Below, piece by piece: positions 1 through 16,957 of a stretch of 64,000 nt of DNA. How positions within the stretch are numbered: position 1 is the stretch's first letter; the number at the start of each line of letters is the position of its first letter. The stretch covers positions 1 through 64,000 of the forward strand of contig BOKP01000003.1 of assembly GCA_016861045.1 (NCBI GenBank). Reading direction: 5' to 3'. The DNA is from Actinomycetes bacterium. GTDB lineage: Bacteria; Actinomycetota; Thermoleophilia; Solirubrobacterales; 70-9. The notes under the pieces were generated by a model, which saw nothing but the letters and a program-made list of their open reading frames with translations, did not search any database and was not told the origin of the DNA. Both the position numbers and the translations under genes were made by a program.

Positions 1-48
1 GCGGAGCTTGCGGATGATCTGCTCGGGGCTGTGGCGTCGTGCGCGCAC
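1..48 (-). CDS. IS3-family transposase OrfA, N-terminal fragment running off the window
   Basis: Sixteen codons from a GTG start encode MRARRHSPEQIIRKLR. The HSPEQIIRKLR stretch is characteristic of the N-terminus of IS3-family OrfA, the helix-turn-helix half of the transposase that binds the element ends and is joined to the DDE half (OrfB) by programmed frameshifting. An AAGGAG ribosome binding site lies about 8 bases upstream of the GTG, supporting the start. The rest of the gene lies left of the window. Confidence 0.75.
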   Translation of the reverse strand, partial: MRARRHSPEQIIRKLR

Positions 49-122
49 CTTGCTTCTCCTTCCTGCCCATCTTCACGGGCGGGAGAAGCTCTCACAAGGG
101 GCGGACGTGATTCAGGGGGTCA
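1..122 (-). mobile_element. End of an IS3-family insertion sequence, cut by the window edge
   Basis: Read on the minus strand, the likely terminus begins with TGACCCCCTGAATCACGTCC at 122 and a transposase reading frame opens 74 bases further in. IS3-family elements commonly end in TGA followed by a C-rich inverted repeat, which fits. Only this end is visible, so the second inverted repeat and the target-site duplication cannot be checked. The boundary at 122 also coincides with the point where the neighbouring excisionase-like frame begins abruptly. Confidence 0.7.
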
Positions 123-338
123 TGCCAGCTCGGCGGCGGCAGCCGGCCGCGCTTGCGCTTCGACCCCGCGGTGGTAGCCGAGCGCTTGGAGGCGACCCAG
201 TCGGCGTCGCAGCCGGGCGCGCCGCGTCGGACCCCGCAGAAGGGAAGGCAGCGCTCCGGTCGGGCGGTAAGGCGCTCCGTTCCGGGTGCCGGGGCCAATG
301 GACGCGCGCGCCCGTCAAACTCAAAACGAGCGAGTTGA
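123..338 (+). pseudogene. 3' remnant of an excisionase-like HTH gene interrupted by the IS element
   Basis: The frame is open from the IS boundary to a TGA at 336-338. It begins with LGGGSRPRLRFDPAVVAERL (from residue 3 of the fragment), which resembles the C-terminal wing of MerR/excisionase-type helix-turn-helix proteins that accompany actinobacterial integrases. The N-terminal half of the expected HTH is absent, so it was probably separated by the IS insertion. Its 3' end precedes the integrase start by 16 bases, the usual xis-int arrangement. The family call rests on a short stretch of sequence and is moderate. Confidence 0.55.
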
Positions 339-354
339 GAGGCTGGGTCGGCGG

Positions 355-1587
355 ATGTCGAGAAAGCCCACCGGACAGATCATCGAGCCACGGGGCAAGC
401 AGCGCAGCTGGGCGCTGCGCTTCTCGGCCTACGGGAAGCGCCAGTTCCTGACGCTCGGTACACCCGAGGAAGGATGGACGCGGAAGCGGGCTGAGAAGGA
501 GCTGGGCCACGTCCTCGCCGACGTCGAGCGGGGCACCTGGAAGCCGCCGCAGCGGAGGGCGCCGGCGCCCTCAGGGCTCGAGTCGCTCGATGAGTTCGCC
601 GCAGACTGGCTCGCCGGGAGGCGCTACGAGCTGCGGCCGCGCACCGTGGATGACTACGAATGGGCGCTCGACTACCACCTGCTGCCGTTCTTCGGTGAGC
701 TGACGTTGGACGAGATCACCGTGATCGAGGTCGACCGCTACAAAGCCAGGAAGCTGCGGGAGGGTCGGCTCGGAGGCGCGCAGATCAACAAGACGCTGAA
801 GCTGCTCGCGCAGATTCTCGATGTGGCGATCGAGTACGAGCTGATCGAGCGGGCCAATCCCGCGCGCGGGCGCAGAAGGCGGGTCAAGGTCGAGAAGCCC
901 CAGCGGACTTGGGTCGAGCCTGAGCAGCTGATGGCTCTGATCGAGGCGTCCGATACCTATCTGCGTCCGGTGGTCGCGACGCTTGCCGGCGCGGGTCTGC
1001 GCATCGGTGAGGCGCTCGCCCTGGATTGGAAGGACGTGAACCTGGCCGTGGGAACGCTCCGCGTGGGACACGCCAAGACCGAGGCGGGGACGTATCGAGA
1101 GGTCGACCTTCCCGGGGGACTGATCGAGGCGCTGAGCGAGTGGAAGGCCTATCGGAGCCGCAGCGGCGCCAAGGACCCGGTGCTCGTGACGCGCCGGGGT
1201 CGGCGCCAGACGGTCACGAATGTGGACCACCGACTCAAGACGGCGATTCGCCGAGCCAACGAGCGTCTGGAGAAGGACGACATCGAGCCGATCAGCCTGC
1301 GCGTGAGCCCGCACTCGCTGCGGCGGACCTACGCGAGCCTGCGCGCGGCGCTCGGGGACGACCCCGTCTACATCGCCTCGCAGCTCGGCCACGAGGATCC
1401 GGCGTTCACGTTCCGTGTGTACCAACGCGCCGCGAAGCGCCGGCAGCGCCTGTCCGACGCGTACCGTCAAGCCTTCGATCGGGCCCTTGATTGGGCAGTA
1501 ATTGGCAGAATCGACGACTCGGGCGCGCCAGACGACGCTTCGGGTGACAGGAAGGAGCGTCAAGAAACCCCTCGTTTGCAGGGATAA
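355..1587 (+). CDS. Tyrosine recombinase (phage/ICE-type integrase)
   Basis: A 410-residue site-specific recombinase that would join element and chromosome at the adjacent tRNA. It has an N-terminal arm-binding region (about 1-75), a SAM-like core-binding domain (about 77-170) and a C-terminal catalytic domain (about 185-370). The catalytic set is complete: Arg216 in GLRIGEAL, Lys241, His320 and Arg323 in HSLRR, His346 in LGHED and nucleophile Tyr356. The start at 355 (MSRKPTG) was preferred because the domain begins there; in-frame ATGs at 286 and 298 would add 23 or 19 residues and overlap the xis remnant. The gene ends 10 bases before tRNA-Met. The enzyme looks functional even though its presumed excisionase is broken. 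Confidence 0.93.
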   Translation: MSRKPTGQIIEPRGKQRSWALRFSAYGKRQFLTLGTPEEGWTRKRAEKELGHVLADVERGTWKPPQRRAPAPSGLESLDEFAADWLAGRRYELRPRTVDDYEWALDYHLLPFFGELTLDEITVIEVDRYKARKLREGRLGGAQINKTLKLLAQILDVAIEYELIERANPARGRRRRVKVEKPQRTWVEPEQLMALIEASDTYLRPVVATLAGAGLRIGEALALDWKDVNLAVGTLRVGHAKTEAGTYREVDLPGGLIEALSEWKAYRSRSGAKDPVLVTRRGRRQTVTNVDHRLKTAIRRANERLEKDDIEPISLRVSPHSLRRTYASLRAALGDDPVYIASQLGHEDPAFTFRVYQRAAKRRQRLSDAYRQAFDRALDWAVIGRIDDSGAPDDASGDRKERQETPRLQG

Positions 1588-1597
1588 CGCAAACTCC

Positions 1598-1671
1598 GGG
1601 CCGGTAGCTCAGTTGGTCAGAGCAGCGGACTCATAATCCGTTGGACGGAGGTTCGAATCCTCCCCGGCCCA
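1598..1671 (+). tRNA. tRNA-Met (anticodon CAT)
   Basis: A complete cloverleaf of 74 nt: acceptor GGGCCGG with CCGGCCC and discriminator A, a D arm with AGTTGGTCAG, an anticodon stem GCGGA/TCCGT enclosing loop CTCATAA, and a T arm GGAGG-TTCGAAT-CCTCC. No CCA is encoded. The anticodon CAT fits elongator Met or, if the wobble C is lysidinylated, Ile2; sequence alone does not settle this. It is unlikely to be the initiator because it has a perfect first acceptor pair. Its 3' half is the integration site. Confidence 0.95.
1632..1671 (+). repeat. att core copy 1 (3' half of tRNA-Met)
   Basis: These 40 bases, from the anticodon to the discriminator base, recur at 3485-3524 with two A-to-G differences. 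Duplication of a tRNA 3' end next to a tyrosine integrase is the standard footprint of site-specific integration. This copy keeps the tRNA functional. Confidence 0.85.
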
Positions 1672-1847
1672 TCGCCCAAGCCCAGCAGCCGAGCCAAACT
1701 CGGCCTCTGTGCCGCCGGCCGATGGCAGGTGACAGCTGCTCGAGTGTGGGATGGTCTATCCGTAAGGAGGGAGAGCGTCAGCCGAGTGGGGGATGCCTAC
1801 CGCCGGACGCTCGGTGGCGCCCCTGGGGTCCACGCACGTCAGCATAA

Positions 1848-1864
1848 GTCAAGCTATACTTGAC
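1848..1864 (+). promoter_or_regulatory. abiE promoter with overlapping inverted-repeat operator
   Basis: A perfect inverted repeat GTCAAG-CTATA-CTTGAC contains a near-consensus -10 box TATACT (1855-1860). The -10 ends 6 bases before the abiEi ATG at 1867, so transcription should start at or beside the ATG and give a leaderless mRNA. AbiEi antitoxins are known to repress their own promoter by binding inverted repeats, so this is the likely AbiEi operator. No clear -35 is seen. Confidence 0.75.
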
Positions 1865-1866
1865 CT

Positions 1867-2466
1867 ATGCATGACGATCCATCACCCGACGTGCGTGGCC
1901 TGGAAGCTGTCGCCTACGACCAGGACGGCTACTTCACGGCCGCCGACGCACGTGAGCGCGGCGTCAGTCGTCAGCTCCTCGACCACCACGTGCGGCAGGG
2001 TCGCTTCGAGCGTATTCGGCGCGGGCTCTTCCGCGTGCGGGGCTTCCCGACTACCGAGCACGCCGAGATGCGTGAGAAGTGGATGGCGGTCGGCGCCGAC
2101 AAGGCGGTCCTCTGTGACGTGAGCGCCCTGGCCCTCCTCGACCTCAGCGACAACATCCCCGATGAGGTCCACCTGCTCGTGCCACGCCGACACAGGGGTC
2201 TTCGCCGACCTCCCAGCACAGTCATCCACACACGGCCTGATGACGAGGATGTAGCGACGGTCTGGCGAGACGGGCTGCCGCTGACCGCTGCTGCGCGAAC
2301 GCTCGTCGATGTGGTCGACTCGCTGCAACCGGAGCAGGCAGACATGGCGGTCAGGCAGGCGCTCAAGCGCGGTCTTCTCACCGAGCGACAGCTTCGCGAC
2401 GAGGCCGGTCGGCGCGGCAAGGCGGCGCCGATTGAGGCGATCCTCGAAGGTGGGGCGGCACAGTGA
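1867..2466 (+). CDS. abiEi: AbiEi-type antitoxin / autorepressor
   Basis: A 199-residue protein with an N-terminal winged helix (about 12-58, GYFTAADARERGV then a basic wing RRGLFRVRG) and a C-terminal alpha/beta region, the layout of AbiEi_4-type antitoxins. In type IV AbiE systems AbiEi neutralises the AbiEii nucleotidyltransferase without stably binding it and represses the operon. The toxin gene overlaps its stop codon (GTGA), which fits strict co-expression. The ATG at 1867 sits 2 bases after the operator repeat and 6 after the -10 box. The family call is firm; neutralisation here is inferred. Confidence 0.88.
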   Translation: MHDDPSPDVRGLEAVAYDQDGYFTAADARERGVSRQLLDHHVRQGRFERIRRGLFRVRGFPTTEHAEMREKWMAVGADKAVLCDVSALALLDLSDNIPDEVHLLVPRRHRGLRRPPSTVIHTRPDDEDVATVWRDGLPLTAAARTLVDVVDSLQPEQADMAVRQALKRGLLTERQLRDEAGRRGKAAPIEAILEGGAAQ

Positions 2467-3362
2467 GGTACGCGACGGCGGCCGCATTCCGCCAGGCCCT
2501 TCATCAGCGGCTGAAGAACGAGGCGGAGGGCAGGGGACTTTCGCTCGTCCGTCTGCGGAAGCGGGCCGCCTTCGAGCTATTCCTTCGCCGCCTCGTGCAA
2601 GTCGCGCCAGGCCGCTGGGTCCTCAAGGGTGCGCTCGCTCTCGACCTGCGTCTGGATGCGGGCGGGCGGTTCACGAGGGACATCGACCTCGGGCGCGACG
2701 ACGACGAGCAGGCGGCGATCGAGGACATCACGGCCGCCGAGCAGCTTCAGCTCGACGACTTCTTCACGTTCTCGGCGCGGAGGGATTCCGAGTTCGCCGA
2801 CACCGACGAGTTCTCAGCTGTCCGCTTTCACATCACGGCCCAACTCGCCGGTCGGACCTTCGATCAGTTCGTGCTCGACGTCGGCTTCACCGATGCGATC
2901 GCGTGGACGCCGGACACGATCGAGACGTCCGGGCTGCTCACGTTCGCGGGGATCGAGCCGATCGAGGTTCCCGCGGTGCCGATCCTGGTGCACCTCGCGG
3001 AGAAGGTCCACGCGTACACCCGCGTGTACGGCGAGGACGAGCGCCGCTGCACGAGGCCTAAGGATCTGGTTGACATCCTCCTGATCGCTGCCGCCGGGCC
3101 GGTCGACGCCGGCGGGTTCCGGGATGCGCTCGATCGCACCTTCACGGGCCGTGGCCGCCAGGAGCTGCCCGCGGAGCTGCCCGCGGAGCTGCCGCCGCCA
3201 CCGGAGAGCTGGGCGGACAAGTACGGGGATCTAGCCAGGGAGGTGGCGGTAGAGCCGGACCTCGGTCGTGCCTTCGAGCTGGCGGTGGGCTTCGTCGACC
3301 CGGTACTGGCGGGGGGCAATGCCGGTGGGCGCTGGGATCCGCCCTCCTGGGAGTGGCGCTGA
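2463..3362 (+). CDS. abiEii: AbiEii/MenT-type nucleotidyltransferase toxin
   Basis: A 299-residue member of the AbiEii/AbiGii nucleotidyltransferase toxins. The signature blocks are present: KGALALDLR (about 55-63), the metal-binding TRDIDL (71-76), then AEKVHAYTR and KDLVDIL. Characterised relatives (mycobacterial MenT toxins) add nucleotides to tRNA acceptor ends and so block translation. The GTG start at 2463 overlaps the antitoxin stop. An ELPAELPAELPP stretch comes from a 12-bp tandem repeat at 3162-3194, a possible site of length variation. The pair lies between the two tRNA-derived att copies and is probably cargo of an integrated element. Confidence 0.9.
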   Translation: MRYATAAAFRQALHQRLKNEAEGRGLSLVRLRKRAAFELFLRRLVQVAPGRWVLKGALALDLRLDAGGRFTRDIDLGRDDDEQAAIEDITAAEQLQLDDFFTFSARRDSEFADTDEFSAVRFHITAQLAGRTFDQFVLDVGFTDAIAWTPDTIETSGLLTFAGIEPIEVPAVPILVHLAEKVHAYTRVYGEDERRCTRPKDLVDILLIAAAGPVDAGGFRDALDRTFTGRGRQELPAELPAELPPPPESWADKYGDLAREVAVEPDLGRAFELAVGFVDPVLAGGNAGGRWDPPSWEWR

Positions 3363-3667
3363 GCGGGACGCCGAAACAGTACCCCAACCGTATCCCGAAA
3401 CCAGCAATTCCCGGGCGATCTCAGCGAACCCCCACACCGCTTGAACAAGCGGAGCTGACCCAGGTCCAACGGACTTCGGAACCCCATGATCCGTTGGACG
3501 GAGGTTCGAGTCCTCCCCGGCCCACTGGAAACCTCCCTGGACAAGGCGCGGCGGGCAGGCGAATGGAAGGTCGCGCGGCTCTGGTCGATCACGGATTCCG
3601 GGGAGCCGGGTCGTGCACAGAGCGGGGCCGGGGGTCGGTGCTAGCGAAGGGTGCCAGAGCCCGTCGC
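3363..3667. other. Right end of the accessory module: palindromes, att copy, no gene
   Basis: No credible gene. A perfect palindrome CCGCTTG-AA-CAAGCGG lies at 3437-3452. GTCCAACGG at 3464-3472 is the inverse of CCGTTGGAC at 3491-3499 inside the att copy, making a 9-bp inverted repeat that could be a pair of integrase core sites. Beyond 3524 the sequence shows nothing recognisable up to the end of the convergent hydrolase gene. Confidence 0.6.
3485..3524 (+). repeat. att core copy 2 (partial tRNA-Met duplicate)
   Basis: Matches tRNA-Met bases 1632-1671 at 38 of 40 positions and lacks the tRNA 5' half, so it cannot be a tRNA gene. It bounds a segment of about 1.85 kb holding only the abiE pair. 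The integrase lies on the other side of the tRNA, so either the element carries a complete tRNA at its attachment site or two elements sit in tandem. Confidence 0.85.
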
Positions 3668-4516: not shown

Positions 4517-6328
4517 ATGCGCAGGGGGCTCACAGCGATCGCGGGCCTGATCGCCGTCGCGGCGCTGTGCTCCGGCTGCGCGTTCGACGGGTGGCGGCCG
4601 CTCGGCCCGGCGGGGCGGGCGGAGATCCCCTCGGCGCGGCTGTACGACCTCGGCGTCGCCGACTTCGACGAGGACGGCCGCCTCGACCTCTTCACCGTCA
4701 ACCACAAGTTCCCCGGGGCCTGGCTGCGGAACGAGGGCGGCGGCCGCTTCGCCGACGCGACCGACGCGATCGGGGTCAGCCCCGACCCGCAGTTTCCCGG
4801 CCTCGACCGGCTGCGGGCGCCGAAGCTGGACGAGCCCGGCGCCTACGTCTACCTGACCGACTCCGAGGAGGGCGAGCCCGGGCTCCTCCACATCCGCGCC
4901 GTTGGGGTCGGGGCGGCGGGAAAGGTCGGGTTCCTCTCGACGAGCCTTCGCGTCGTGCGCGCCCGCCGCGCGCGGACCCGCCTCGGCATCAACGAGCAGT
5001 CGGTCCGGGTGGTCAGGTTCCGGGCGCGCCCGGGGGCCGCGATCGTGCTCGATCCCTCGAGCGTGGCCGACGCCCCGATGGCCGCCTTCTTCACCGCGCC
5101 ATCCGATCCCGGCCTGATCCGGGTCGGGACCGACGCGATCAGCCCCGGGGGGCTCGACTTCCGGCTGACCCTCCGCGACCGCCACGCGATCGCATTCGCG
5201 AACCTCGTCGGCGACGACGGCCTGGACGCGTTCATCGCGAGCGGCGGGCTCGGAGGCGGCATCGCCAAGCCGGCGTTCCGGGGCCGGATCCGCGACGAGC
5301 TCCTGGTCGGCACGGGCGACGGCTTCAGCGAGCTCTCCGACGGCGCCGGCCTCGGGAAGGGGATCTGCAGGGGACGTGGGGCGGAGGCGGTGGACTTCGA
5401 CGGCGACGGGCTGCTCGACCTCTTCGAGGCCTGCGAGGGGGAGCCGCCGATGCTCCACCGTCAGGTCGAGCCCGGCCGGTTCGACGCCGTCCCGGCGCCG
5501 GCGGCCGTCGGGACGGCCGAGCGCTGGGTCCAGCTCGACGGGGGGCGACCTTCGCTGCTCGTCGCCGGCTCCGGCGCCCTCGCCGCCTGGCGCTGGGCCG
5601 GCGGCGGCTTCTCGCGTACGCAGTCGCTGCCGCTCGCGACTGCGGGGCCGGTCGCTCAGCTCGCCCTCGGCGACCCCGACGGCGACCGCGATCTCGACGT
5701 CCTCGCCGTCGCGATCGGCGGCAACACGATGCTGCGAAACGAGGGCGGGCGGCTGCGCCCGGCGCCGCCGGGCTGGGCCGGGGCGCCGGCGGCGAGCGCG
5801 GCGGCGAGCTTCGTCGATTACGACAACGACGGCCTGGTCGACCTCCACGCCGTCCCCCAGGGGCTGATCCGAAACGACGGCGCCGGCCGGCACCACCGGA
5901 CCGGGCTGCTGAGGACCCCGCCGGCGGGGGCGGCGATCGACGGGTGGGCCGATTTCGACGGGGACGGGCTGCGCGACCCCGTGATCGCGACCGGAAGGGG
6001 AGAGTTCGCGCGGCGGATGCGGGTCCGTCGCGCCCGCAACACCGCCCCCCTTCACGGCCACTGGCTCGAGATCGACCTGGCCGGCGCGCCCGGCAACCGG
6101 CAGGCGATCGGCGCCCGGGCGGAGGTCCGCGCCGGGCAACTGCGGCAGGCTCAGTGGGTCGGCCAGAACGACGACGCCCCTCACTCGCAGGGCCACTACC
6201 GGCTCTACTTCGGGCTCGGGCCGCACGAGGCCGTCGACGCCGTGACGGTGCGCTGGCCCGACGGCTCGCGGACCGAGCTCGGGCCGCGGCCGGCCGACCA
6301 GCTCGTGCGGATCGAGCAGGGGGGATGA
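4517..6328 (+). CDS. Exported lipoprotein with FG-GAP/VCBS repeats and an ASPIC/UnbV domain
   Basis: A 603-residue protein. Residues 1-22 form a lipoprotein signal with lipobox LCSGC, so it should be lipid-anchored outside the membrane. Repeated DFDxDGxxDL blocks (DFDEDGRLDL, DFDGDGLLDL, DPDGDRDLDV, DYDNDGLVDL, DFDGDGLRDP) are calcium-binding FG-GAP/VCBS blades of a beta-propeller. The C-terminus (about 510-603, IGARAEV, GPHEAVDAVTVRWPDG) is an ASPIC/UnbV domain, which typically follows such propellers. Ligand and process are unknown; adhesion or polysaccharide contact is the usual guess. The frame stays open far upstream, but the lipobox and the TAACCT box fix the start. Confidence 0.88.
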   Translation: MRRGLTAIAGLIAVAALCSGCAFDGWRPLGPAGRAEIPSARLYDLGVADFDEDGRLDLFTVNHKFPGAWLRNEGGGRFADATDAIGVSPDPQFPGLDRLRAPKLDEPGAYVYLTDSEEGEPGLLHIRAVGVGAAGKVGFLSTSLRVVRARRARTRLGINEQSVRVVRFRARPGAAIVLDPSSVADAPMAAFFTAPSDPGLIRVGTDAISPGGLDFRLTLRDRHAIAFANLVGDDGLDAFIASGGLGGGIAKPAFRGRIRDELLVGTGDGFSELSDGAGLGKGICRGRGAEAVDFDGDGLLDLFEACEGEPPMLHRQVEPGRFDAVPAPAAVGTAERWVQLDGGRPSLLVAGSGALAAWRWAGGGFSRTQSLPLATAGPVAQLALGDPDGDRDLDVLAVAIGGNTMLRNEGGRLRPAPPGWAGAPAASAAASFVDYDNDGLVDLHAVPQGLIRNDGAGRHHRTGLLRTPPAGAAIDGWADFDGDGLRDPVIATGRGEFARRMRVRRARNTAPLHGHWLEIDLAGAPGNRQAIGARAEVRAGQLRQAQWVGQNDDAPHSQGHYRLYFGLGPHEAVDAVTVRWPDGSRTELGPRPADQLVRIEQGG

Positions 6329-9927: not shown

Positions 9928-11319
9928 ATGGGATACGGACTCGGATTCGAGACCCTGGAGAGGGAGACGCGGATCGAGGCGCTGCCCGTCGAGGGCGAGA
10001 TCCCCGGCTGGCTCGGCGGATCGCTGCTGCGCACCGGCCCGGCCCGCTTCGAGGTCGGCGCGCGCGAGCTGAGCCACTGGTTCGACGGGCTCGCGATGCT
10101 GCACCGCTTCGGGTTCGCGGGGGGCGCCGTCTCCTACGCGAACCGCTACCTCGAGAGCAGGGCCTACCGGGCCGTCGAGGAGACGGGCGCGATCGGCTAC
10201 TCGGAGTTCGCGACCGATCCCTGCCGCTCGCTGTTCAGGCGGGCGATGTCGCTGTTCCAGCCGGCGCTCTCGGACAACTGCAACGTCAACCTCGTCCGGC
10301 TCGGCGAGCGGTTCGTGGCGATGACCGAGACGCCGCTTCCGGTCGAGTTCGATCCCGCGACCCTGGCCGCCGCCGGCGTCGGCTGGAAGGTTCCGGGCCA
10401 GCTCACGACCGCGCACCCGCACCTCGATCGCGGCGGCGGGATGCTCAACTACGCGGCCAGGCTCGGGCCCCGCAGCAGCTACCGCTTCTTCCGGCTCGCC
10501 GGCGCGCCCGGCGCGACGCCCGAGATCGTCGCGTCGCTTCCGACCCGCCGGCCCGCCTACATGCACTCGTTCGGGCTCACGGAGCGCTGGCTCGTCCTCG
10601 CCGAGTTCCCGTTCGTCGTCAACCCGGCGGCGCTGGCGCTCTCGGGGCGCCCCTATATCGAGAACTACCGCTGGCGCCCGGAGCTCGGCACCCGCTTCAC
10701 GCTCCTCGACCGGAGCGGGGGAGAGGCGCTCGGCCCGTTCACCGCCGACCCCTGCTTCGGCTTCCACCACGTCAACGCCTTCGAGGACGCCCACGGCGAC
10801 GTCGTCGCCGACGTCTGCGCCTTCGACGACGCCGGGATCGTCAAGTGCCTGTACCTGGACGTGCTGCGGGCGGGTCGCGCGATCCCGGCGCCGGAGCTGA
10901 CCCGGTTCACGATCTCGCCCGCGACCGGAGCCGTCGCCCGCGAGCGCCTCGTCGACGAGCCGGTCGAGCTGCCGCGGATCGACTACGGCCGCTGCAACGG
11001 GCGCCCCTACCGCTACGCCTGGGGAGCCGGCACGGACGGCTCAGGGTTCTTCGACCGGATCGTCCGCGCCGACCTTCGCGAGCGTACGACCGTGACTTGG
11101 AGCGAGACCGGCTGCTGGCCGGGCGAGCCGGTGTTCGTCGCCCGCCCGGACGCCGGCGACGAGGGCGACGGGGTGCTGCTGTCGGTCGTCCTCGACGGCG
11201 CGGCCGGATCGAGCTTCCTGCTCGTCCTCGACGCGGCGACGCTGGCCGAGGTCGGTCGCGCGATCGTGCCCCACCACGTCCCGTTCGGGTTCCACGGCCA
11301 GTACGCGGCCGCCGCCTGA
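9928..11319 (+). CDS. Carotenoid cleavage oxygenase (RPE65/CCD family)
   Basis: A 463-residue non-haem iron(II) enzyme that would cleave a double bond of a carotenoid or apocarotenoid with O2. The four iron-ligand histidines are visible in family context: TAHPHLD (163/165), YMHSFGLTE (213), FGFHHVNAFE (280/281) and GFHGQYA (456). The N-terminal GWLGGSLLRTGPARFE is also family-typical. The start at 9928 is preceded by GAGGAGGAAG, a strong ribosome binding site, and TACAGT about 29 bases upstream may be the -10. No carotenoid synthesis genes occur in the window, so the substrate is open. Confidence 0.92.
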   Translation: MGYGLGFETLERETRIEALPVEGEIPGWLGGSLLRTGPARFEVGARELSHWFDGLAMLHRFGFAGGAVSYANRYLESRAYRAVEETGAIGYSEFATDPCRSLFRRAMSLFQPALSDNCNVNLVRLGERFVAMTETPLPVEFDPATLAAAGVGWKVPGQLTTAHPHLDRGGGMLNYAARLGPRSSYRFFRLAGAPGATPEIVASLPTRRPAYMHSFGLTERWLVLAEFPFVVNPAALALSGRPYIENYRWRPELGTRFTLLDRSGGEALGPFTADPCFGFHHVNAFEDAHGDVVADVCAFDDAGIVKCLYLDVLRAGRAIPAPELTRFTISPATGAVARERLVDEPVELPRIDYGRCNGRPYRYAWGAGTDGSGFFDRIVRADLRERTTVTWSETGCWPGEPVFVARPDAGDEGDGVLLSVVLDGAAGSSFLLVLDAATLAEVGRAIVPHHVPFGFHGQYAAAA

Positions 11320-16051: not shown

Positions 16052-16957
16052 ATGAGCAAGACCGCGACCAAGTCCAAGGCCCGCCGCAGCGGCTCCGGCG
16101 CTTCGCGCTCGACCGGAGCCACGAACGGAAAGACCCTCTCGAGCTACATCACCGAGCGCTTCGACGACTTCTCGCGCTCGCAGAAGGACGTCGCCCGCTA
16201 CATCGTCGACCACCTCGAGGAGGCGGCCTTCCAGACGGCCGAGGAGCTCGCCCGGCGCGCCGACACCTCCTCGTCGACCGTCGTCCGCTTCTCGCAGGCG
16301 CTCGGCTTCGACGGTTACCCAGAGCTCCAGCAGGCGGCGATCGAGGAGTACCGGGCCAACGTCGCCGCCGGCGCCGCCGGCGCCGGCGGCAAGGGCGGCG
16401 CCCTGTTCGACTTCGACCACACGGAGTTCGAGGCGTCGCTCGCGGCCGACCACGCCAACATCGAGAGCACGGCCCGCGGCCTCGCCCGCGAGGCGGTCGA
16501 CGATTGCGTGCGCGAGCTCGCGACCGCGCACCGGGTCGTGATCGTCGCGATGGACCAGATGGCCTTCTTCGCCTCCTACCTGCGTCACATGCTGGCGCTG
16601 CTCGACATCCGCGCCGAGACGGTCACCCAACCGCGCCAGGAATCGATCACCCGGCTCGGCAACGTCGACGACGACACGCTCGTCGTCGCCTTCTCCGCCG
16701 GACGCGCCCATCCGCTCGTGATCAGGGCGATGAAGCTCGCGCGCCACCGCGGCGCCCGGACGATGGCGATCAGCGACGCGACCCTCTCCGACGTCGGCGA
16801 GCACGCCGAGCACACGCTCTACTGGTCTTCCGACTCGCCCTCCTACACGCGGTCGACGACCGCGCTGCTCGCCCTCGTCGAGGCTCTCGCCTACGGCGTC
16901 TACTCGCGCGACAAGACCGCGTTCAAGGACCGGATCCGGGCCTTCAAGCTGAAGTAG
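16052..16957 (+). CDS. MurR/RpiR family transcriptional regulator
   Basis: A 301-residue protein with an N-terminal HTH_6 domain (about 28-105, EELARRADTSSSTVVRFSQALGFDGYPELQ) and a C-terminal SIS phosphosugar-binding domain (about 145-275, with VVAFSAGRAHPLVIRAMKLARHRGARTMAISD). Such regulators sense sugar phosphates. A basic/Ser-rich leader of about 25 residues precedes the HTH. No sugar operon is adjacent, so the regulon is unknown. The downstream pdxST operon has its own promoter. Confidence 0.92.
   Translation: MSKTATKSKARRSGSGASRSTGATNGKTLSSYITERFDDFSRSQKDVARYIVDHLEEAAFQTAEELARRADTSSSTVVRFSQALGFDGYPELQQAAIEEYRANVAAGAAGAGGKGGALFDFDHTEFEASLAADHANIESTARGLAREAVDDCVRELATAHRVVIVAMDQMAFFASYLRHMLALLDIRAETVTQPRQESITRLGNVDDDTLVVAFSAGRAHPLVIRAMKLARHRGARTMAISDATLSDVGEHAEHTLYWSSDSPSYTRSTTALLALVEALAYGVYSRDKTAFKDRIRAFKLK

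Follow-up and report, generated by a model that had tools for sequence, protein, structure and literature searches.

Why does an integrase lie outside the pair of repeats that enclose its apparent cargo? This question is raised by the start of a 64,000-nucleotide stretch of DNA (hereafter, the window) from the draft genome G000, which comprises 2.70 Mb in five contigs; the window corresponds to bases 1-64000 of contig C3 and starts at the contig edge. Here, a complete tRNA-Met gene is followed by the two AbiE toxin-antitoxin (TA) genes and then by a second copy of its own 3' half, and a tyrosine integrase is found on the other side of the tRNA. The initial annotation had described 40-bp attachment-site copies, identical at 38 of 40 positions and enclosing only abiEi and abiEii, and had placed the integrase outside of them, 5' of the tRNA. 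The first description is exact, as the repeat comparison agrees with the open reading frame (ORF), Pfam, and PADLOC scans, and the second is borne out by an integrase (286-1587) ending 10 bp before the tRNA. We consider it very probable that two site-specific insertions, mirror images of one another, share this one tRNA-Met gene: an island restoring its 5' half on the left (island A) and a unit bounded by 3' halves on the right (unit B). The integrase would lie outside the AbiE cargo because it belongs to the 5'-restoring island, while the AbiE unit belongs to the 3'-restoring one, and it is for this reason that the left partner copy is a 5' half and not a third 3' half. Two tandem elements sharing the middle site had in fact been suggested initially. 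Two elements do appear to share the tRNA, but the left partner is a 5' half (C1:1135408-1135450), making the sharing of an unforeseen kind. A third 3'-half copy to the left of the window, which the initial annotation advised looking for, is absent from the end of C1, which holds the 5' half alone, C3 itself starting at a contig edge. The parts involved are ordinary and their arrangement is unusual; we regard it as real and its explanation as well supported. The relevant features of the window are as follows:

1..127, - strand: left end of an IS3-type insertion sequence (IS) at the contig edge; exact reverse complement of C1:1149049-1149175
286..1587, + strand: tyrosine integrase of the putative left, 5'-half-restoring island (PF00589, 6.5e-20; PF14659, 5.2e-8)
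1583..1588, + strand: -10-like GATAAC, candidate promoter element for the restored tRNA (read from sequence; overlaps the integrase stop, 9 nt before the tRNA)
1598..1671, + strand: complete tRNA-Met(CAT) (ARAGORN; RF00005, 78 bits)
1598..1639, + strand: 5'-half attachment block; identical lone copy at C1:1135409-1135450
1632..1671, + strand: 3'-half attachment block, left copy, from the anticodon to the final base of the gene (repeat comparison)
1867..2466, + strand: abiEi, predicted antitoxin (PF13338, 6.7e-10; PADLOC AbiEi, 1.3e-53)
2463..3362, + strand: abiEii, predicted nucleotidyltransferase toxin (PF08843, 9.9e-28; PADLOC, 2.5e-81; Rv1045 (6y5u), 2.1e-6)
3485..3524, + strand: 3'-half copy, probably the displaced chromosomal one, at the right end of the AbiE unit (repeat comparison; GC content 73.7% beyond)

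A tRNA gene and its two half copies

The 40-mer at 1632-1671 has a single further copy in the window, at 3485-3524 (38/40, 2 mismatches), with an expectation by chance of 0 based upon 100 dinucleotide shuffles. The tRNA is named Met from its CAT anticodon alone; the initiator is encoded by a separate gene (L028), leaving elongator Met or Ile2. When the genome was searched with the region, an exact 43/43 copy of the tRNA front, including one preceding base, was found at C1:1135408-1135450 (0 in 200 shuffles). This lone 5' half is 14.9 kb away from the C1 end and stops in the anticodon stem, after which other DNA follows, and ARAGORN calls no tRNA at this position. The sequence common to the 5' half on C1 and the 3' half at 3485 is solely CATRATCC, covering the anticodon plus the stem that follows. 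GC content is 73.7% to the left of the C1 5' half, 66.1% on C1 beyond it, 68.4% at 128-1597, 67.8% in the AbiE interval, and again 73.7% in the 10 kb to the right of 3524, with the steps coinciding with the two outer tRNA halves. By itself, the AbiE interval is modestly unusual, since 5 of 294 equal-length stretches to the right of 3524 are as low.

From these features a mechanism can be proposed. The island A integrase would recombine in the anticodon loop, at CATAATCC, with a 5'-half element attachment site (attP). The island would carry a tRNA 5' half and restore the gene with it, leaving the chromosomal 5' half at C1:1135408. Unit B (1672-3484) would carry a 3' half and restore the other end of the gene, displacing the chromosomal 3' half to 3485-3524. 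It would use the same crossover region as island A and may have been moved by an integrase in trans or be the remnant of an island with a lost integrase. The working tRNA would then be derived from mobile elements on both sides, its 5' half from A and its 3' half from B, and recombination of the outermost halves would excise A, the tRNA, and B jointly, rebuilding the original gene. The tRNA halves, the synteny, the integrase classes, and the recurrence of the arrangement are seen in the sequence, and from them we infer the order of events, the promoter, the excision, and the mobilisation of B. The direction of island A entry is presumed in the same manner, and the pattern within the integrase family argues for a 5'-half attP.

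A probable junction of contigs C1 and C3

The order dgt-dnaG-glycosyltransferase (GT)-short-chain dehydrogenase/reductase (SDR)-(lipoprotein)-tRNA-Met-...-RpiR(-pdxS-pdxT) occurs on single contigs of four relatives: in G008 (L089) with all of the genes, in G018 (L091) and G011 (L094) with no match to the lipoprotein, and in G013 (L085) with RpiR only on the right side. In G000 the genes are divided: the GT, SDR, lipoprotein, and a carboxyltransferase are on the left side of the 5' half (C1), and RpiR-pdxS-pdxT are on the right side of the 3' half (C3). The same left-flank genes are found in G002, a member of the same genus, and behind them lies a tRNA-Met with an identical 5' half. An abhydrolase gene was tried as a right-flank marker and abandoned as it is not conserved; pdxS was taken instead. 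As the initial annotation had advised, we also looked for relatives that have the region and no insertion boundary at either repeat. None were found, since G008, G018, G011, and G013 are contiguous through tRNA-Met and G000 is split, with the outer halves at the boundaries.

C1 ends with a complete IS3-type element (C1:1149049-1150383) whose OrfB has rve/rve_3/HTH_21 domains, and this is the sole other copy of window bases 1-127 in the assembly. The 127-base overlap may be a k-mer overlap. The synteny together with the IS overlap suggests that the C1 end is likely placed next to the window start, in which case at least 16.5 kb of island A is assembled (C1:1135451-1150383 plus window 1-1597). 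The locus then has the composition of a tRNA island with a 5' fragment: a complete tRNA, a same-orientation 5' fragment upstream (on a separate contig, joined by synteny and IS overlap), and an integrase within the interval (286-1587) as the last gene before the tRNA. The IS copies at the C1 end and the window start are in opposite orientation, and such an inverted pair may enclose an unassembled gap. Elsewhere, tRNA-Met and tRNA-Asn occur alike on two contigs of one genome (L254 and L255; G053:C112 and C116), reflecting either a duplication or a strain mixture.

Mirror classes within the integrase family

Integrase relatives at E<=1e-50 are encoded by 27 of 232 Solirubrobacterales genomes (33 rows of matches). 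Across the phylum, relatives at E<=1e-40 occur in 3 of 396 genomes, all of them Solirubrobacterales, and a scan of GTDB contigs yielded 38 loci, mostly from metagenome-assembled genomes of Solirubrobacterales or other Actinomycetota. Among the phage and plasmid matches listed (10 of 516 phage and 8 of 119 plasmid records, all best places <60%), none exceeds about 30% identity. The 3' end of the integrase gene lies 14-188 bp from a tRNA in 23 of 30 loci examined, window included; six of the remainder have no tRNA in the stretch examined and one has a tRNA on the opposite side. Seven of the 23 tRNA-adjacent integrases are on the same strand as the tRNA and run toward its 5' end, and 16 are on the opposite strand and converge on its 3' end.

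This orientation is mirrored by the displaced halves, which were searched at the far end of 12 tRNA-adjacent loci, six of each orientation. A 5' half is present in 4/6 same-strand loci (query positions 1-41 of tRNA-Arg-TCT in G063, 1-40 of tRNA-Arg-CCT in G009, 1-43 of tRNA-Ala in G157 at 95%, and 1-39 of tRNA-Gly in G059), and a 3' half in 5/6 opposite-strand loci (G004, G030, G157:C26, G026, and G200), with G015 showing only a 71% match. The wrong half was found at none of the 12 far ends. The GTDB scan added one further same-strand locus, L223 (Gly), having a 5' half (positions 1-41, 100%); at the distant same-strand locus L237 (Leu, 26% identity), no half was found.

In a tree of 31 integrases, from which L217, L220, and L223 were left out as too short, the window integrase groups with the 5'-mode integrases, six same-strand members (Met, Arg, Arg, Cys, Gly, Gly) clustering together (support 96/98). 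For the seventh (Ala, G157), the sister sequence is a 3'-type integrase (98/97). On this tree the mode labels need two changes, the starred branches force two, and 0 of 500 shuffles are as good. Given the separation of G157 from the six-member group and the two forced changes, the mode changed at least twice in the family, the 5' mode having at least two origins in the tree. The eight far junctions have 8 nine-mers common to at least 3 sequences (maximum of 300 shuffles, 6), chiefly TTTGGGCAG/CTGCCCAAA, which occur in 4/8 junctions; the G000 far junction has a looser palindrome only (z -2.83). These arm-site-like nine-mers would support the integrase family and not G000 itself.

Two side observations concern the 5' mode. 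At tRNA-Arg(TCT) of G063 (L155-L158; G063:C93:112198-127586), the 5'-mode element includes capsid- and tape-measure-like ORFs recognised by eye, so the mode looks to be used also by an apparent prophage. Decayed integrase C-termini are present just upstream of intact tRNA-Met genes at L092 (G002:C180) and L088 (G020:C56), as if older 5'-mode islands had once occupied tRNA-Met.

The double arrangement recurs. At L207 (= G059:C99), a single contig has a tRNA-Gly 5' half (6055-6093), an integrase (10001-11020), the complete tRNA (11048-11121), and a 3' half (16248-16291). Its right interval contains an AbiEii-like gene (PF08843, 1.4e-20) and a Gp49-like/HTH pair, and no integrase was recognised there upon reading the ORFs and scanning five of them against Pfam. 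At this tRNA-Gly locus, both sides of the arrangement are thus seen together on an unbroken contig. In G003, a lone 5' half is found at the same left flank as in G000 (L077), and the pdxS contig has a set of three 3' halves, with abiEi/abiEii lying in opposite orientation between two of them; a complete tRNA was not found in G003, and a different integrase is nearby.

Weighing the alternatives

The most serious competitor, to which we would give a small chance, is a single element. It would have used CATRATCC as a short core to insert between the C1 5' half and 3485, destroying the host tRNA in the process and supplying a complete tRNA-Met of its own as a substitute. The outermost halves overlap in just such a core with a full tRNA inside, and phages employing tRNA-dependent lysogeny exist according to the account in PMC10865867. 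However, for similar islands in G063, G009, G157, and L223 the tRNA is the end point: each has its far 5' half, and the 0.4 to 10 kb examined past the tRNA shows no 3' half, indicating that the tRNA is a boundary and not cargo. Furthermore, AbiE units with two 3' halves of their own occur elsewhere, and the internal tRNA repeats both host halves (43/43 and 38/40).

An element whose attP spans the whole tRNA gene, as is reportedly the case for SLP1, had been the other initial suggestion, prompted by the whole tRNA between the integrase and the AbiE cargo. Such an element should leave whole tRNAs at both junctions, whereas the left junction on C1 is half a tRNA with no ARAGORN call, and we therefore consider this improbable in the extreme. 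An assembly or binning artefact, in which the start of C3 or the 5' half on C1 is misplaced, is less probable still, despite the draft assembly and the IS sequence at both contig ends: flank synteny holds on both sides, the GC content steps consistently, and G059 has the full arrangement on a single contig.

Several observations nonetheless weigh against two mirror-image insertions at this tRNA. The C1-C3 junction is unassembled, with opposite-orientation IS on either side and unassembled DNA between them, and this gap may leave room for additional elements within island A. The right flank beside 3524 (abhydrolase) is not conserved in relatives, and only RpiR-pdxST, 12.5 kb further, is. There is no clean empty site in the same genus: G002 has an integrase remnant (recognised by eye) and G001 is rearranged. 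Same-strand loci do not all comply, as no half was found at G057 (1.3 kb of upstream DNA), G060 (16 kb), or L220 (tRNA-Arg; about 10 kb), and L217 (Met) has a near-full second tRNA copy in place of a half. Lastly, a stem-loop directly after the G000 5' half is no better than in shuffles (z 0.23).

Relation to known systems

Among the islands catalogued by Islander, a 5' fragment is reported in 159 of 3,919 and an anticodon-centred site in 2,083 (PMC4383910). Island A resembles the 5'-fragment islands described there in its tyrosine integrase, anticodon-centred crossover, restored tRNA, and 5' fragment displaced upstream; unlike that class as presented, its 5' mode is found within a mostly 3'-mode integrase family, and the island adjoins a 3'-type unit on the other side of the same tRNA. 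According to a review of archaeal recombinases, pTN3-like integrases have a tRNA 5' half as their chromosomal site (attB), with the restored tRNA transcribed from the element side or integrase promoter; the review states that 5'-half use is rarely encountered in bacteria (PMC8371274). These integrases are archaeal, and the likeness drawn here to the window integrase is one of 5'-half use.

Cis-mobilizable elements (CIMEs) and the tandem accretion of islands are established (PMC5704250), and our locus similarly places an attachment-site-bounded unit lacking an integrase beside an element having one. In contrast to the accretion outlined in that source, the units lie on opposite sides of the tRNA and restore opposite halves. 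As in the tRNA-dependent lysogeny of Fionnbharth and others, an essential tRNA is supplied by element DNA; in the cases given there an unrestored tRNA is complemented by a whole one encoded separately (PMC10865867), while here each insertion restores its own half. AbiE is reported to help stabilise an integrative and conjugative element (ICE) in Streptococcus suis (PMC11062541); abiEi-abiEii is mobile cargo in both settings, though here it is alone in a 1.8 kb unit between tRNA 3' halves. A search of titles and the beginnings of abstracts found no description of a mirror pair at one tRNA; Williams 2002 or the tycheposon paper may contain one. Both modes are known separately, and their pairing at one tRNA as well as the mode switching look to be new.

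Several consequences would follow. Firstly, the seemingly misplaced integrase is explained by a mechanism invisible to searches for 3'-half copies alone. Secondly, the family offers a testable case of integrases switching the restored tRNA half. Thirdly, both the sequence and the promoter of an essential tRNA may come from mobile DNA. More broadly, it seems to us an even proposition that the anticodon loop serves as a two-sided dock at which integrases of this family switch modes and 5'- and 3'-types stack back to back, with a tRNA of mobile halves being transcribed from the integrase end, both elements being lost only by exact recombination, and small TA units being parked on the 3' side.

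Candidate promoter and likely cargo of island A

If everything ahead of the tRNA is now island A DNA, A has to contain the promoter, at the 3' end of the integrase gene, where the candidate GATAAC is located. On C1, GATAAT precedes the chromosomal 5' half by 8 nt, and the two copies in G157 have gcgtatattgagg in common, both as read from the sequence. A terminator just after each displaced 5' half was considered and is not claimed: among the 4/8 junctions folded, the predicted stem outdoes shuffled sequence at G059 (z -2.15) and L223 (z -2.81) and fails to do so at G000 (0.23) and G024 (0.15).

The C1 stretch beyond the 5' half is a GC-poor defence island. C1:1135862-1144811 (L036/L037) encodes the HmaA helicase, HmaB methylase, and HmaC ATPase of an Hma system (PADLOC: HmaA, 6e-199; HmaB, 5.5e-94 with the C-terminal 677 aa scanned; HmaC, 1.4e-113), which the island of the window integrase probably carries as cargo. 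It is followed on C1 by a weak Sir2-type ORF, a small ORF with no match, an SMC/LmuB-like ATPase, and the IS.

The AbiE unit

The abiEi and abiEii ORFs overlap by 4 bp as one operon and encode both domains of a type IV AbiE TA system (PF13338 and PF08843). The only other coding-like ORFs of at least 100 aa between the 3'-half copies run antisense to these genes. Like a CIME, the unit is bounded by attL/attR-like repeats (1632-1671 and 3485-3524, 38/40) and has neither integrase nor transfer genes, AbiEi and AbiEii alone being found. As it lacks an integrase, it would be decayed or trans-mobilised, and the interval is presumably a separate, CIME-like unit bounded by 3' halves.

At E<=1e-25, 18 of 232 Solirubrobacterales genomes encode an AbiEii relative. 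A complete tRNA or tRNA half lies within ~1.5 kb of AbiEii in 11 of 19 distinct loci (window excluded; L188 and L198 counted as one place), six being 3' halves, both as raw counts. With wider flanks, AbiE or AbiEii is located between two 3' halves, or between a tRNA and a 3' half, in G003, G023, G011, G058, and G059 besides the window; the 3'-half-bounded units are at Met (G003 and G023) and Val (G011). A similar unit in G058 still encloses an integrase-like gene (35%), a suggestive hint only that the AbiE unit could descend from an ICE or an integrative and mobilizable element. The nearest solved structure to the window AbiEii is Rv1045 (2.1e-6), a family that we take to act on tRNA ends. The initial annotation saw interest in such chemistry at a tRNA site; no functional link was found, and AbiE units also occur beside Val, Gly, His, and Ala halves.

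Short intervals bounded by tRNA halves and containing AbiE or other TA genes recur in Solirubrobacterales. Met and Val 3' halves, some in arrays, delimit 1-6 kb intervals with TA-like genes (Phd/PIN, HEPN, AbiE) at L241, L082, L080, and L251, in which no integrase was recognised by eye. At two of these loci the short interval lies between tRNA-Met and its 3' half, and it contains a HEPN gene at L082 and a Phd/PIN pair at L241.
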